From IMG/VR virus record IMGVR_UViG_3300020463_003399, positions 1 through 64,000 of that record: a stretch of 64,000 nt of DNA; one strand, written 5' to 3'. Below, piece after piece: positions 1,482 to 52,201 of this stretch. Source of the DNA: a virus. Both the position numbers and the translations under genes were made by a program. A model generated the notes under the pieces. The model was given only the letters and a program-made list of their open reading frames with translations. It did no database searches and was not told the DNA's origin. The first letter of the stretch is position 1. Each line of letters starts with the position of its first letter.

Positions 1482-1602
1482 ATGGCATAGAAAACAAACT
1501 GAATACTGGCAAAAGAAATTTAATGTAGACGCATATGGTCTTGCATGGATTGCCTGGGCTAAAGGTCTTGTAATGGGTTTATTGATTGCTTGGTTTATTT
1601 AA
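1474..1602 (+). CDS. Small single-pass membrane protein
   Basis: A 42-residue protein starts at the ATG at 1474, 7 bases after GGAGGAG (1461-1467); this overlaps the end of the preceding gene in another frame. It has a basic N-terminus (KWHRKQTEYWQKK) and one hydrophobic C-terminal segment (GLAWIAWAKGLVMGLLIAWFI region), consistent with a single-pass inner-membrane peptide. Longer starts in the same frame lie inside the preceding gene and lack a ribosome site. The 3' end overlaps the convergent nuclease gene by 8 bases. Function unknown. Confidence 0.65.
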   Translation: MIKWHRKQTEYWQKKFNVDAYGLAWIAWAKGLVMGLLIAWFI

Positions 1603-2125
1603 CACCATCGATACAATGATATTCAAATCTTTCAGTATTGTATAACCAAAATTCTTCTGTACTTAAAACTATCCAAGTACCATATTTCTCAGAATTATAT
1701 TTAACATGAATAGGGCTTCTCCAGCCTTTATTCAATAATACTTCTTGAAATGCTACGTAAGTTCCCTTACGACTAAATTTCATAAAAACGATATTCACAT
1801 CATTTTCTTCTGCGATATCCATAGTCTGATTTATCCAACCTTCTAAAAGCGGAATTTTTTTATTGTGTAGAAAATGGTGAAAAGGAAAATCAGCATAATT
1901 TTTGCATTCGCAATTAAAATACTTCCAATTATCAGGAGGTATAATATCTCCTTTAAAACCTCTTACTTGTCCTTCACTTAAATTAGATGCTCTATGGAAA
2001 TTACTTCCACCTATATATGCACCACTATTAGGTACACGTACAAAGCTACCATTATATTTCTCACTTAGGAACTTAGCTAACTCTCTTTCATAGCTACTAC
2101 CTTTTGCTTTACTTTTACTTGGCAT
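1595..2125 (-). CDS. PD-(D/E)XK nuclease, Holliday-junction-resolvase-like
   Basis: This 176-residue protein has the signature order of small PD-(D/E)XK nucleases: an N-terminal KGSSYERELAKFL helix with the first Glu, a serine/glycine stretch (PNSGAYIGG), then GFKGDI and ECKNY, which supply the metal-binding Asp and the E-x-K. Such proteins cleave branched or double-stranded DNA; a recombination or packaging repair role is inferred. It is transcribed on the minus strand, away from the neighbouring structured-RNA region, and converges on a small membrane-protein gene. Confidence 0.75.
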   Translation of the reverse strand: MPSKSKAKGSSYERELAKFLSEKYNGSFVRVPNSGAYIGGSNFHRASNLSEGQVRGFKGDIIPPDNWKYFNCECKNYADFPFHHFLHNKKIPLLEGWINQTMDIAEENDVNIVFMKFSRKGTYVAFQEVLLNKGWRSPIHVKYNSEKYGTWIVLSTEEFWLYNTERFEYHCIDGVK

Positions 2126-2275
2126 AAATTATATCTTCCATTATTAAAGGTCTAAAGACCTAATCCCTTTTAATTCTCAATCGCTTTGCTCTTTCGAATT
2201 AATTCGGTATTTGTTTTATTAGTATATATCATTAATGGGTATATGTCAATAGTATTAGTCTCTGTCCCGTGAAGA

Positions 2276-2667
2276 AGCCATAATTGCCCTGTTGCCAGGA
2301 CAATTAAAAAATGGCTGTACAGAAAATCTTGTCTTATCTGTCCCTTGCTCATCGCCTCTATGTCTAAGTTAGTCGCTAGTTACGACGGAGTCGGTTGGCG
2401 ATCCCTCCTTAACTTAGTATTGCATCTTTCGATCCAACGGCACTCTTTATAATCCACATAGATAGAAACTATAAAAAGCAGATAGTGTTATAAAAACCTA
2501 TCATCGGTAATATTATTACTAGTCAACCATGTCCTTCAGAGACCATGGCTGTTTTATGATTATGAATACTCTTTTGTGGTTTACGAGAAGAATGTCAGAA
2601 TTCATCCTGACTAGTCCGACGGCAAATCTTAAATTTGCAATCTCAATCCCGTGTCGGCAACCCGACA
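2276..2667 (-). ncRNA. Candidate structured noncoding RNA, class unknown
   Basis: This roughly 390-base gene-poor stretch is packed with hairpins. Main stems: 2276-2316 (AGCCAT/ATGGCT outer, AATTG..CCTG/CAGG..CAATT inner), 2364-2417 (CTAAGTTA/TAACTTAG), 2525-2550, 2594-2611, 2622-2638 and 2652-2667. Three stems have positions that are A-C mismatches on the plus strand but G-U pairs on the minus strand, and the first hairpin closes with a GCAA (GNRA) loop only on the minus strand, so the RNA is most likely minus-strand. CCGAC of the 2652-2667 hairpin can also pair with GTCGG at 2616-2621, giving exclusive folds. It lies between gp26 and the nuclease gene, both minus strand. No known class (tmRNA, RNase P, group I/II intron) was recognised. 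Confidence 0.5.
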
Positions 2668-2754
2668 AACGATTCCACTATGTATGCTGAGATATTAGTC
2701 ATTCCCTATTCCTATTCACCGAGTTATATATTAGATGTATTAGTCGTATTAGTT

Positions 2755-3818
2755 TTACAATATTGGCATTCCTGCCTTTTTACTCATTTCAAAGTTTTTC
2801 TCAATAATTTTATTGAGATGCTTAATATGAGACACTGGCATATCGTGTAGATCCCGAATCGAAACCCCACCTCTCATATACCAACTTAATTCTAACAAAT
2901 TATAGTGTAGTTTGTCAAGTTCTTTTTCAAACTTTTTTTGTTTTTCTACAATTTCTTCACCGCTGGCGGTTGCTAACCAGCTACGGAAAAATTTATAGGG
3001 TTCATTTCTAAGCTAATTGTCTCTTTATGACCGCAATCTTCAACTGGACAAACAAAGTTAAACTTGTTTAATTCTGCTGGTTTTCTTGTAATTTTTTCTA
3101 CTGATTTGTTGATATTAGTTACTAAACTTGCAGGTATATTAGCTAGAAATTCATTAATTTGTACTCTATCTGTTATATCTGCCTCTTTAGTACGTATCAT
3201 AGAAACTGTTTCAGATAATAAATCTACATTTTGTCTAGCAACACGTTCAAAACTTGAATAAAAACGTTTGGCAAGTTCTAACTCATCAGCATCATCTTTA
3301 CTTTGTGTTTTGATGTTATTAACAATTCTTTGTTCTTCTAGCTGAATGAGAGCAACCCGTGTTACACTCTCTAAACTCGGTGGTTTAACATGTATCTCTA
3401 AATCTTCATACATTATAGGTTCTACAACATCTATATCTGGAAATTTGTTCAACAAAAAGTTAATGTCAATGTTAAAATCGCTTTGATTATCACATTTAGT
3501 ACATTTGTGTGTATGTGTGACTTCTTTTCCATATGTAGCATAGCTGATAGCTAAAAATAATGCCTCAGCATCAATGTTGCATAAGTTTCTTGGGTTCGGT
3601 ATTGATGGACAACAACTTTTAAACAAACTAATCATAGCTTCACCGTTTAATAGTGAGTCAGGGTTTCTTAAAGTTATTTCATCAATAGCCGTCATAGGCA
3701 TAACGCCTATTTCATCAATAATAGTTTGGTCTATTTCAGGATTAAATCTTCCTTTAGTAGGCAAACTTACATAAATTGCCGGCTTTCTAAAATACTTAGT
3801 TAGCGGATTCTCGTTCAT
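2755..3818 (-). CDS. gp26 baseplate protein, -1 frameshift fusion product
   Basis: Translation of gp26 can shift -1 at AAATTTT (minus strand, 2994-2988; codons A AAT TTT) and continue for 77 codons to the TAA at 2757-2755, giving a 354-residue product. The extension reads FRSWLATASGEE, a charged coiled stretch, then WYMRGGVSIRD and a C-terminal helix ending MPIL. It has no start codon of its own: a stop (TAG) lies just upstream in that frame, and the first ATG is 38 codons in. The sequence is clearly protein-like and in the frame reached only by slippage. See the separate signal entry for the hairpin. Confidence 0.65.
2962..2994 (-). promoter_or_regulatory. Programmed -1 frameshift signal
   Basis: On the minus strand the heptamer A AAT TTT (2994-2988) fits X XXY YYZ in the gp26 frame. 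Six bases (TCCGTA) separate it from a hairpin GCTGG (2981-2977) with CCAGC (2966-2962), which can extend through CCG/CGG. The gp26 stop TAG (2975-2973) lies inside the hairpin loop. Heptamer, spacer length and hairpin together match known bacterial -1 frameshift sites. Confidence 0.65.
2973..3818 (-). CDS. 26: Baseplate hub subunit gp26-like protein (zero-frame product)
   Basis: This 281-residue protein matches the T4 gp26 baseplate family in overall plan: an N-terminal KYFRKPAIYVSLPTKGRF segment, then MPMTAIDEITLRNPDSLLNG and a cysteine-bearing middle (CTKC near residue 110). A C-terminal C-x4-C pair in FVCPVEDCGHK suggests a zinc site. It contributes to the baseplate hub at the tail tip. 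The start at 3818 follows AAGGAATTA-type purines. A shorter T4 homologue (about 208 residues) is known; this one is longer and is probably also expressed as a frameshift extension. Confidence 0.75.
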   Translation of the reverse strand: MNENPLTKYFRKPAIYVSLPTKGRFNPEIDQTIIDEIGVMPMTAIDEITLRNPDSLLNGEAMISLFKSCCPSIPNPRNLCNIDAEALFLAISYATYGKEVTHTHKCTKCDNQSDFNIDINFLLNKFPDIDVVEPIMYEDLEIHVKPPSLESVTRVALIQLEEQRIVNNIKTQSKDDADELELAKRFYSSFERVARQNVDLLSETVSMIRTKEADITDRVQINEFLANIPASLVTNINKSVEKITRKPAELNKFNFVCPVEDCGHKETISLEMNPINFSVAG

Positions 3819-3929: not shown

Positions 3930-6269
3930 ATGGCTGAAGGCGATGTAACAATAACAGGTTTGAGTCCGAATGTACCACAATGGTCTACGGAACAAACATT
4001 ACTTAAAGTAACGCAGATTTTACAGAAAGAAAATCTACTTACTTCACAGGTTATTAAAAGTATTAATGCCCTGGCGTCAGGTAATGCCGAAACAGTAAAA
4101 GAAGTACGTCAAAATGTACAACAAGCCAGAGAAACCGCTAAAGCAACAAAAGAATTAGAAAAAACCACTGCACAATCAGTACAAGAAGAAAAGAAGTCTT
4201 TTAATATCTTTAGTAATATCTACAAAGGCATAGAAAGACTAGTAAGAGTCGAAGAATTACAAAACACATTACAAGAAAAAAGAACAAAAGCACTTGAAGA
4301 AAAAATATTTCAGGCAACAATGAAATCGGCACCTGATGGCGATGTACAAGCGGCTAGATTAGATGCAAAAATGAAGGCGGCAACACAGGCAACGAAAAAC
4401 TCTGAAACAAATATTCTTAGTGGTGACATTAATCCTAACTTTTTTCAAAAAACTATTAAAGGTATTGCAGGCATGACAGTTGCGGCAGAAGGATTTAATG
4501 CATACTTAGGTCAAAACTTTGAAGATAGATTTAATCTTGCAAACGAAATAAGACAATCTGGTTTATTTGCAGGTTTAGATTCTGCTTCTGCAGGATTAAT
4601 TGGGTTTTCAGAAACAGTTAATGATAGTAACTTTACATTAGGTCAAGCGGCAGAATTTACTGAAAGATTTTCACAAGCAGTTGGTAGAACAGGCGTTGAG
4701 GCGGCAATGAGATTTGTAAACGCCATGGCATATGATAGGCAACTTGAAAATGGAGAAAAAGCATTAGGCTTGATGGAAAGATTTGGTATGGACTTTAGAC
4801 AAGTTAGTATTGTGTCAGGTGAATATCTAGAATCTTTAAGATCCGCAAACGTATTAGGAAAATTGTCACAAGCACAAATGGAAGCAGGCATGGAAGACTT
4901 TATGGATGGGGTTACTGCAACATCTAACGTCTTAAAAATTAGTTTAGAAGATTCTGCAAAGATGATTGCAGATAGATTGAACAGAGATGATATTGCTGGG
5001 TTCATGGCTCTTATGAGTGATGATAAAAAACAACAAACAACGGCGGCATTAGCAGGTGTTGGTCTTGAAGATGGAAGTGTATTAGGTGAGGCAATTATTA
5101 AAAGGATTGCAATGGGTAGTGAAGGATTTTTAGTTTCAGATGACAGAGCCCAACTAATGGAAACAGCCCAAGGTGCAGAAATAGTTAGACTTATTGAACA
5201 AGTAGGTTTAATTGCAGACCAAGGCGGAGACGTAAGTGCGGCGATGAAAACATTTATGTCTGGCGCAGGACAAATGGTTGATGCTAATCAAGGTGATGCT
5301 ACTGCTAAATTACTGATGGCTACTGGACAAGGCAATATAGGAAAAATGTTTACTGAAATTGAAAAATTTTCAGGAACTATTGGTGACATTGACAAAGGAA
5401 TTACACCGTTAGCTGAGGCAGACGTTGCCCAAGTTGCTAAAGACGATATTGCAAGAACGGCCACAGTTGCTATCGAAGGATTGGTAAACACACAAATGCC
5501 AGTCTTTGCAGAAAACTTAAAAGGTATCAATACACAAACTGCTGGTATAATTAACAACTTAGAACAAGTAGGACTTAATCTAGCACCAGCGGCCTCGGTA
5601 GCCGCTAGAACGGCAGGAATAATAACTGAGGCAGGCAGAGGCATTGGAGATGCAATGCTAGACGCCTTAGAATTTATAACATCACCATTAGATAATGCCG
5701 TTACAGGTACTGTAAAAGTAATTGGAGCAGATGATACTAAAACAGGACAAATTATTACTGATACTCAACAAACAGATGAAGAAAAAGATAAAAACATAGC
5801 AACAAAACGACAGACCAAAGATATCACAAAGGGCGAAGAAAGTTTACGTGAAGGTGGTATTGTTAATATGTTGATAGATGGTCAAGCAAAAAATATGTTT
5901 GACGAATTATTTGAAGTTTTATTAAAAGATAAAAATGCTGATATATCAGGAAACGTATCTGAACTATCAGATTTAATGGGATTTGATAGTTTCTTTAAAG
6001 ATGATGCAGAATCTATAAAAGAAAGTCAAGCAGAATTAATGAGAGCAATCGAAGCCATTAAAGAAAAAGACGAATTCAGGGCTGAAGGTGGACAAGAAAA
6101 ACTACAGAAATTATTAGATGCACTAGAAGCCATGCAATCAGAAACATATGAAAAGAGTATGTTCAGAGGTGACGAAGCAACAAAGGCAAGAAACGATGAA
6201 AACGCCACAGAAAAAGACGCTTTAGTTGGAGCAATTAGAGATTTAATAGACTCAATCAAGAGGCAATAA
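3930..6269 (+). CDS. Putative tape measure / large tail structural protein
   Basis: This 779-residue protein is mostly alpha-helical, with a coiled-coil-rich N-terminus (residues about 45-130: long Gln/Glu/Lys/Ala heptads). A small-residue-rich central domain of alternating Ala/Gly helices follows, then a second charged helical C-terminus. Length, helix content and position between gp26 and the portal gene suggest a tail length determinant analogous to T4 gp29 (590 residues), but I see no diagnostic motif. An alternative is another large internal virion protein. The start ATG follows GAGAGAAATTTA. A late promoter lies upstream. Confidence 0.45.
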   Translation: MAEGDVTITGLSPNVPQWSTEQTLLKVTQILQKENLLTSQVIKSINALASGNAETVKEVRQNVQQARETAKATKELEKTTAQSVQEEKKSFNIFSNIYKGIERLVRVEELQNTLQEKRTKALEEKIFQATMKSAPDGDVQAARLDAKMKAATQATKNSETNILSGDINPNFFQKTIKGIAGMTVAAEGFNAYLGQNFEDRFNLANEIRQSGLFAGLDSASAGLIGFSETVNDSNFTLGQAAEFTERFSQAVGRTGVEAAMRFVNAMAYDRQLENGEKALGLMERFGMDFRQVSIVSGEYLESLRSANVLGKLSQAQMEAGMEDFMDGVTATSNVLKISLEDSAKMIADRLNRDDIAGFMALMSDDKKQQTTAALAGVGLEDGSVLGEAIIKRIAMGSEGFLVSDDRAQLMETAQGAEIVRLIEQVGLIADQGGDVSAAMKTFMSGAGQMVDANQGDATAKLLMATGQGNIGKMFTEIEKFSGTIGDIDKGITPLAEADVAQVAKDDIARTATVAIEGLVNTQMPVFAENLKGINTQTAGIINNLEQVGLNLAPAASVAARTAGIITEAGRGIGDAMLDALEFITSPLDNAVTGTVKVIGADDTKTGQIITDTQQTDEEKDKNIATKRQTKDITKGEESLREGGIVNMLIDGQAKNMFDELFEVLLKDKNADISGNVSELSDLMGFDSFFKDDAESIKESQAELMRAIEAIKEKDEFRAEGGQEKLQKLLDALEAMQSETYEKSMFRGDEATKARNDENATEKDALVGAIRDLIDSIKRQ

Positions 6270-52124: not shown

Positions 52125-52201
52125 GGACCCGTAACTCAGCTGGATAGAGTGCTTGTCTACGAAACAAGATGTCGGGAGTTCGAATCTCTCCGGGTCCGCC
52201 A
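52125..52201 (+). tRNA. tRNA-Arg (anticodon ACG)
   Basis: A full cloverleaf is visible: acceptor GGACCCG/CGGGTCC, D-arm ACTC/GAGT, anticodon stem CTTGT/ACAAG with loop CTACGAA (anticodon ACG), variable ATGTC, T-arm GGGAG-TTCGAAT-CTCTC and an encoded GCCA end. ACG, read as ICG after deamination, would decode CGU/CGC/CGA. CGT codons are frequent in this genome, so the tRNA may supply arginine for CGU-rich late genes. Confidence 0.95.

Follow-up and report, generated by a model that had tools for sequence, protein, structure and literature searches.

Between the gene for the baseplate hub protein gp26 and a nuclease gene, the viral record IMGVR_UViG_3300020463_003399 carries roughly 390 bases that hold no convincing gene, and we asked what this stretch is, and how it might act. 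An earlier note on positions 1 to 64,000 of the record (64,000 nucleotides, hereafter the window) had proposed a structured RNA, read leftward, at 2276-2667, and had suggested that it may be a phage-specific RNA, an intron or a riboregulator. To our knowledge, large ornate phage RNAs are few and their functions unknown, and another RNA family so well backed by comparative structure would offer cryo-EM new targets.

A structured RNA read from the minus strand

When folded as the minus strand, positions 2276-2690 reached -116.9 kcal/mol, compared with -96.0 +/- 5.6 kcal/mol for shuffled sequences (z -3.7; 0 of 100 shuffles). Across 2130-2760, the folding z-score was -3.8 for the minus strand and -1.1 for the plus strand. 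Each sense frame of the RNA is interrupted by at least three stops in every relative, so that no reading frame is conserved; together with the shuffle test, this supports the proposal of a structured RNA without a convincing gene. The leftward reading is likewise supported, by two wobble pairs, namely a G-U pair in helix P3 (invariant in 47/47 sequences) and a U-G pair in P13 (48/48), each of which would be a C-A mismatch if the other strand were read. The GNRA loop of P10 likewise supports this reading, as it exists on the minus strand only, in agreement with the earlier note; it is nearly always GAAA or GCAA across relatives, with a few cases of GTAA or a rare variant.

These observations also bear on whether the stretch works as a DNA-level element, such as a replication origin or a packaging site, with the structure at work in single-stranded DNA or in a transcript of the origin. 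Its single copy, its fixed place and an array of CTAATA motifs that adjoins it in relatives with enough flank would suit such an element; however, the family-wide invariant G-U pairs favour RNA over DNA pairing, and the fold z-score is strand-specific, making this explanation very improbable.

Relatives were sought in IMG/VR. A search with gp26 led to 19 loci, in which the RNA follows gp26 wherever the contig is long enough, and DNA patterns made from conserved blocks matched 72, 83, 75 and 104 contig stretches, in mostly overlapping sets. Single-pattern matches that came without the remaining RNA (e.g., L023, L093, L094, L101, L104 and L111) were set aside as chance. The 3' core was found in about 120 IMG/VR loci, which yielded 57 distinct full-length sequences from several clades, about 410-480 nt in size. 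Searched with two models of the family (R1 and R2), each of nine records, including two of 342 kb, held exactly one copy and no extra ones. A pattern scan of bacterial and archaeal genomes (one per species) gave 48 matches, all chance as judged by flanking sequence, and none of the 21 that were rescored with R1 had an E-value below 0.1. Searches of isolate phage DNA with the window region and one relative returned nothing or chance matches only, and the RNA was absent from five isolate phages searched with a model over the whole genome. The suggestion of a phage-specific RNA thus holds, the RNA having been found in viral loci and the bacterial scan having given chance matches only. Its carriers appear to form a group of large phages, relatives of the RaK2/121Q/PA5oct jumbo myophages.

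A fold maintained by compensatory changes

The structure comprises 18 helix segments, one of them a pseudoknot, between 2277 and 2678. The hairpins proposed earlier (at least six in about 390 bases) are therefore present, but they are more numerous and the element is slightly longer, with helices reaching 2678 and a CTAATA-rich leader extending to about 2752. In an alignment of the 3' domain (48 distinct sequences; 50 pairs including the pseudoknot), 94.8% of cells were paired, 27 pairs had changed on both sides, and the covariation score was 0.342 versus 0.153 for shuffled sequences (0/500) and about 0.10 or less for slid partners. In that of the 5' domain (47 sequences; 26 pairs), 94.4% of cells were paired, 12 pairs had changed on both sides, and the score was 0.302 versus 0.119 when shuffled.

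As kinship among sequences inflates covariation counts, we used a tree-based null, in which the substitutions of each branch were kept and dealt to other columns (300 simulations). Over the 18 segments and 57 sequences, 93.5% of cells were paired, compared with 62.1% under the null (maximum 67.0%). Compensatory branch events numbered 62 versus 2.9 (maximum 7 of 300) and pair-breaking events 41 versus 203 (minimum 170 of 300), a result that concerns the proposed structure as a whole, which was itself derived from the same sequences. When all columns were compared against all under this null, an APC-corrected G-test gave one significant pair and Watson-Crick covariance none, these blind comparisons having little power since long branches make chance co-changes common. 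For the structure as a whole, compensatory changes, and not a lack of covariation, were what the alignment of relatives revealed, and the existence of a conserved structured RNA is near certain.

The core of the RNA, from P1 to P14, spans 2277-2689 on the minus strand, as do all parts given here, and was aligned in the 57 full-length sequences. Its 5' domain (2576-2678) is a junction closed by P1 (2678-2675/2579-2576). It contains P2 (2667-2662/2657-2652; 12 compensatory branch events), P3 with its invariant G-U pair (2651-2647/2588-2584), and P4 (2638-2633/2627-2622) and P5 (2611-2607/2598-2594), with four events each, the distal pairs of P4 being weak in the tree-based test. The P6 hairpin follows (2524-2551; nine events, 91% paired), with a conserved loop of the CUCURAAGG type, and then the P8 hairpin (2481-2502), which with its inner helix P8b (2497-2495/2489-2487) totals 11 events. 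The loop of the P9 hairpin (2443-2478; 80% paired versus 42% under the null) holds the 5' strand of the pseudoknot (2357-2462 overall), UCUAUGU at 2462-2456, which pairs with ACAUAGA at 2363-2357, the strand after P11. The pseudoknot was 99% paired in the 3'-domain alignment, where 5 of its 7 pairs showed both-sided changes, and 95% paired in the full alignment, with five branch events; its variants (CUAUGU/ACAUAG, CUGUGU/ACACAG, CUGUUU/AAACAG and AAUGUGU/ACACAUU) all keep the pairing.

Between the two strands of the pseudoknot lie the P10 hairpin (2420-2437; 100% paired), whose halves are separated by a purine-purine mismatch and which has eight compensatory events in P10b, and P11 (2417-2410/2371-2364), which encloses P12 (2408-2405/2390-2387 and 2401-2399/2393-2391) and P13 (2386-2382/2376-2372). 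This region (2364-2417) is 92-100% paired, shows compensatory changes in all three helices and carries the invariant motif AUCGYCAACCGA. Two stems had been thought to compete for the sequence CCGAC; however, other clades have GAUUGG/CCAAUC as P2 and an unaltered CCGAC in P12, so the competing stems are not a conserved switch. The final hairpin, P14 (2277-2315), has an upper stem (2303-2298/2289-2284) that is 100% paired (null 72%) with zero compensatory events, and a clade-variable lower stem (2315-2311/2281-2277) that is only 61% paired.

Two smaller features were observed along the RNA. A short direct repeat, GGGACAGA, lies on either side of P14 (2250-2345, minus strand); it differs between genomes and agrees within a genome, examples being GGGACAGA, GGCAAGT, GGAACAAGT and TGACAAG. 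The mean shared word was 7.1, compared with 5.4 for shuffled partners (maximum 5.9 of 200), though the agreement within genomes may be partly due to relatedness. After P2, a 19-codon ORF ending in GATTGA seemed conserved on visual inspection of several clades, and was rejected, having no start codon in locus L003.

A fixed locus with replaceable neighbours

Read in the RNA's orientation, every locus with enough flank begins with a portal gene and a putative tape measure gene (so labelled for its position and size), both on the opposite strand; gp26, a small ORF that overlaps it, the RNA and a nuclease gene then follow, all on the RNA's own strand. In the window, gp26 lies at 2973-3818 on the minus strand (PF12322, 5.4e-14; PHROG 150). 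The overlapping ORF (2755-2994, minus strand) is in the -1 frame of gp26 and would be entered at a conserved slippery heptamer, A_AAU_UUU (2988-2994); 52 of 53 loci have this heptamer in frame, at a distance of 10-46 nt from the gp26 stop that follows it. The frame that overlaps the end of gp26 mostly has no early start codon. Judging by these sequence features, programmed frameshifting here probably produces gp26 fused to the extension, in the way known from phage tail chaperones.

On the other side of the RNA, the downstream gene of the window (1595-2125, minus strand) encodes a PDDEXK_15/RusA-like Holliday junction resolvase (Pfam PF24608, 3.8e-26; PHROG 244, 5e-19), preceded by a GGTCTTTAGACC hairpin (2149-2160, minus strand) that was seen in all clades inspected. 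Depending on the clade, however, the nuclease is of the PDDEXK or the non-homologous GIY-YIG type (the latter identified from a GFVY...KYIGKK motif rather than a profile search), and the RNA is kept when the nuclease switches. In two loci, a radical-SAM-like ORF is inserted between them. Since the nuclease is replaced while the RNA is unchanged, the RNA is not tied to any single downstream gene, and this speaks against a role as leader or intron.

For the intron this matters in more than one way. A self-splicing intron, whether still active or decayed, or another mobile ribozyme, would fit the large compact fold, the pseudoknot, the GNRA loop and the adjoining nuclease gene. However, Rfam gave no match to a group I or group II intron or to any ribozyme, no gene is interrupted, the adjoining nuclease differs between clades, and there is no second copy. 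Moreover, a search for empty sites among the loci with flanks found none: all are occupied, at an identical position between intact neighbouring genes. The earlier suggestion of an intron is thus disfavoured, and we consider it hardly credible.

We also weighed whether the RNA acts in cis as a leader or 3' element (an attenuator, a riboswitch or an element for processing or stability) and in this way controls the gp26 operon or the nuclease gene. It always lies between gp26 with its small ORF and a same-strand nuclease gene, and in the clades inspected the start of that gene has the GGTCTTTAGACC hairpin before it. A leader or riboswitch would be expected before one downstream gene family, yet what follows is PDDEXK or GIY-YIG by clade, in two loci with the radical-SAM-like ORF in between, and the RNA itself is unchanged, which also disfavours the suggested riboregulator of the next gene. 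In addition, a sigma-70-like promoter (TTGACA-17-TATACT; 2221-2249, minus strand) follows the RNA and precedes the nuclease gene, so that in the window's clade the downstream gene has its own promoter. Leaders are usually smaller, with fewer domains, than this RNA. A cis-acting element is therefore unlikely.

As for the RNA's own expression, the largest GIY-YIG clade carries, in most of its members, TTGACA-17-TAGTAT 110-147 nt before P1. No convincing promoter was found directly upstream of the RNA in the window's clade and several others, so there the RNA could be cut from the gp26 transcript. The 5' leader (2693-2752, minus strand) contains four copies of CTAATA; relatives with enough flank usually have 3-7 copies per 260 nt upstream of the RNA, and the window has 67 in total on both strands. 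In promoter-bearing members, the array follows the -10 box, and would thus lie in the transcribed leader. CTAATA was also considered as a general late promoter, which was not supported: the motif enriched upstream of ORFs is TAAATA, found at most 80 nt upstream of 18 of the 50 long ORFs (at least 120 aa) on the plus strand of the window, compared with 2.5 expected, and TAAATA is likely, from this enrichment, to be a late-promoter motif.

Taken together, the covarying fold, the lack of a reading frame, the one fixed locus, the replaceable neighbours and, in many members, the promoter of its own point to a trans-acting RNA gene, and we put the probability that this is a new family of large structured, independently transcribed, trans-acting phage noncoding RNA at roughly 0.7. 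The trans-acting part of this reading is likely, with the caveat that the fixed link to gp26 and the nuclease leaves room for a role in cis. We propose that the RNA would be transcribed on its own, in many members from the sigma-70-type promoter just upstream, in which case it would probably be early. It would then act in trans through its folded shape, and not as a gene leader, intron or mRNA; its partner would be a protein or ribonucleoprotein, of the phage or of the host, or the RNA itself, in the manner of GOLLD and ROOL.

A second RNA in cultured phages, and comparison with known RNAs

In phages 121Q, BF, GAP32, CBB, XaC1 and Munch, about 0.7-0.8 kb at the corresponding spot beside gp26 has no convincing genes, and this gap contains a different unannotated structured RNA of about 540 nt, on the strand opposite to that used by the window-type RNA. 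In the 121Q locus (L187), it lies at 4240-4800 on the minus strand, and it is also present in loci L188-L193. In most of these phages it starts with a -10 box of the TATAAT type. It recurs in 41 phage records, and in its central part 14 of 29 pairs had changed on both sides (10 sequences). Its carriers are enterobacterial and Xanthomonas jumbo phages, with a diverged form in RaK2. A model of it (R3) found five copies each in BF, Munch, GAP32, XaC1, Kaldavass and CBB, four in 121Q and three in RaK2, all on one strand per genome and spread around the genome (in KM507819.1 at about 90, 193, 247 and 327 kb). It had no significant match in Rfam, and the searched passages of the CBB genome paper make no mention of it. 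Being carried by cultured phages that grow on laboratory E. coli, this second RNA would give easy genetic systems for RNA function.

The 121Q-type RNA resembles that of the window in its spot between gp26 and a resolvase gene and in being large, covariation-supported and unannotated; it differs in its strand and in its three to five copies per genome versus one. R1 and R2 had no match in isolates of the 121Q family, and R3 did not match the RNA in window-family loci (best match E 0.026, elsewhere in the locus); as the models do not cross-match, we claim no homology between the two RNAs. Further structured or gene-poor gaps follow gp26 in PA5oct, Phosso and Atu_ph07, and neither model matches them. 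In PA5oct (L185, about 4960-5920, minus strand), a perfect sigma-70 consensus promoter (TTGACA-17-TATAAT) reads into a gene-poor stretch of about 0.9 kb antisense to gp26, whose minus-strand fold has a z-score of -3.0.

The genes past these gaps raise the possibility that the window-type RNA takes part in Holliday junction resolution or packaging, or regulates it: the adjacent resolvase-type nuclease, of whichever fold, would bind the branched RNA, which would thereby time the cuts of branched phage DNA. The isolate jumbo phages inspected usually have such a nuclease there: EndoVII in 121Q, RaK2, BF, GAP32, CBB, XaC1 and Kaldavass, and a RusA-like or Holliday junction resolvase in PA5oct and Phosso. 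However, the argument is drawn solely from adjacency, no homology was detected among the gap RNAs of different lineages, and RaK2 has the nuclease yet no large RNA at that spot, which leaves the idea decidedly improbable. More broadly, and still speculatively, giant T4-like phages could keep the space from gp26 to the resolvase gene as a standing address for large structured RNAs. Those of different lineages would be unrelated or have diverged beyond recognition, and would share a job, beside Holliday junction resolvases, in processing the phage genome or taking over the host.

Regarding catalogued families, Rfam 15 gave no match over the window at the gathering score and only one chance match at E <= 5 within 2100-2900, and strict and lenient Rfam scans of relatives gave nothing significant. 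Covariance models of RNase P RNA, 6S RNA and HEARO did not match, neither ARAGORN nor Rfam found a tmRNA in the window, and our literature search found no description of the gp26-adjacent RNA. The earlier view that none of the known classes (tmRNA, RNase P RNA, introns, 6S) is present thus holds, and the RNA would, on sequence grounds, form a new family outside those catalogued.

With large phage noncoding RNAs it shares an extensive covarying fold, the lack of a conserved ORF and its encoding by a phage. Long RNAs have been detected by RNA-seq in ICP1 (an abundant lncRNA of ~800 nt; PMC7567579) and phage K (unannotated lncRNAs; PMC9241854). Like the present RNA, these are long RNA genes that large virulent phages carry without annotation and that fall outside GOLLD and ROOL or resemble them only loosely; the present RNA, in contrast, is known from covariation only. 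GOLLD and ROOL are large phage RNAs of unknown function, GOLLD often exceeding 800 nt and commonly lying near tRNA genes (PMC12286853). The present RNA resembles GOLLD as a large multi-helix, phage-associated RNA that codes for no protein, and it resembles ROOL, which occurs in phages and prophages, in being large, ornate and pseudoknotted. It differs from both in that their covariance models had no match in the window and in not being near tRNA genes, the sole tRNA of the window lying at 52125, about 50 kb away. GOLLD and ROOL assemble into RNA-only cages. By covariance model, the gp26-adjacent RNA is not a member of either family; by analogy, it may nonetheless work like them.
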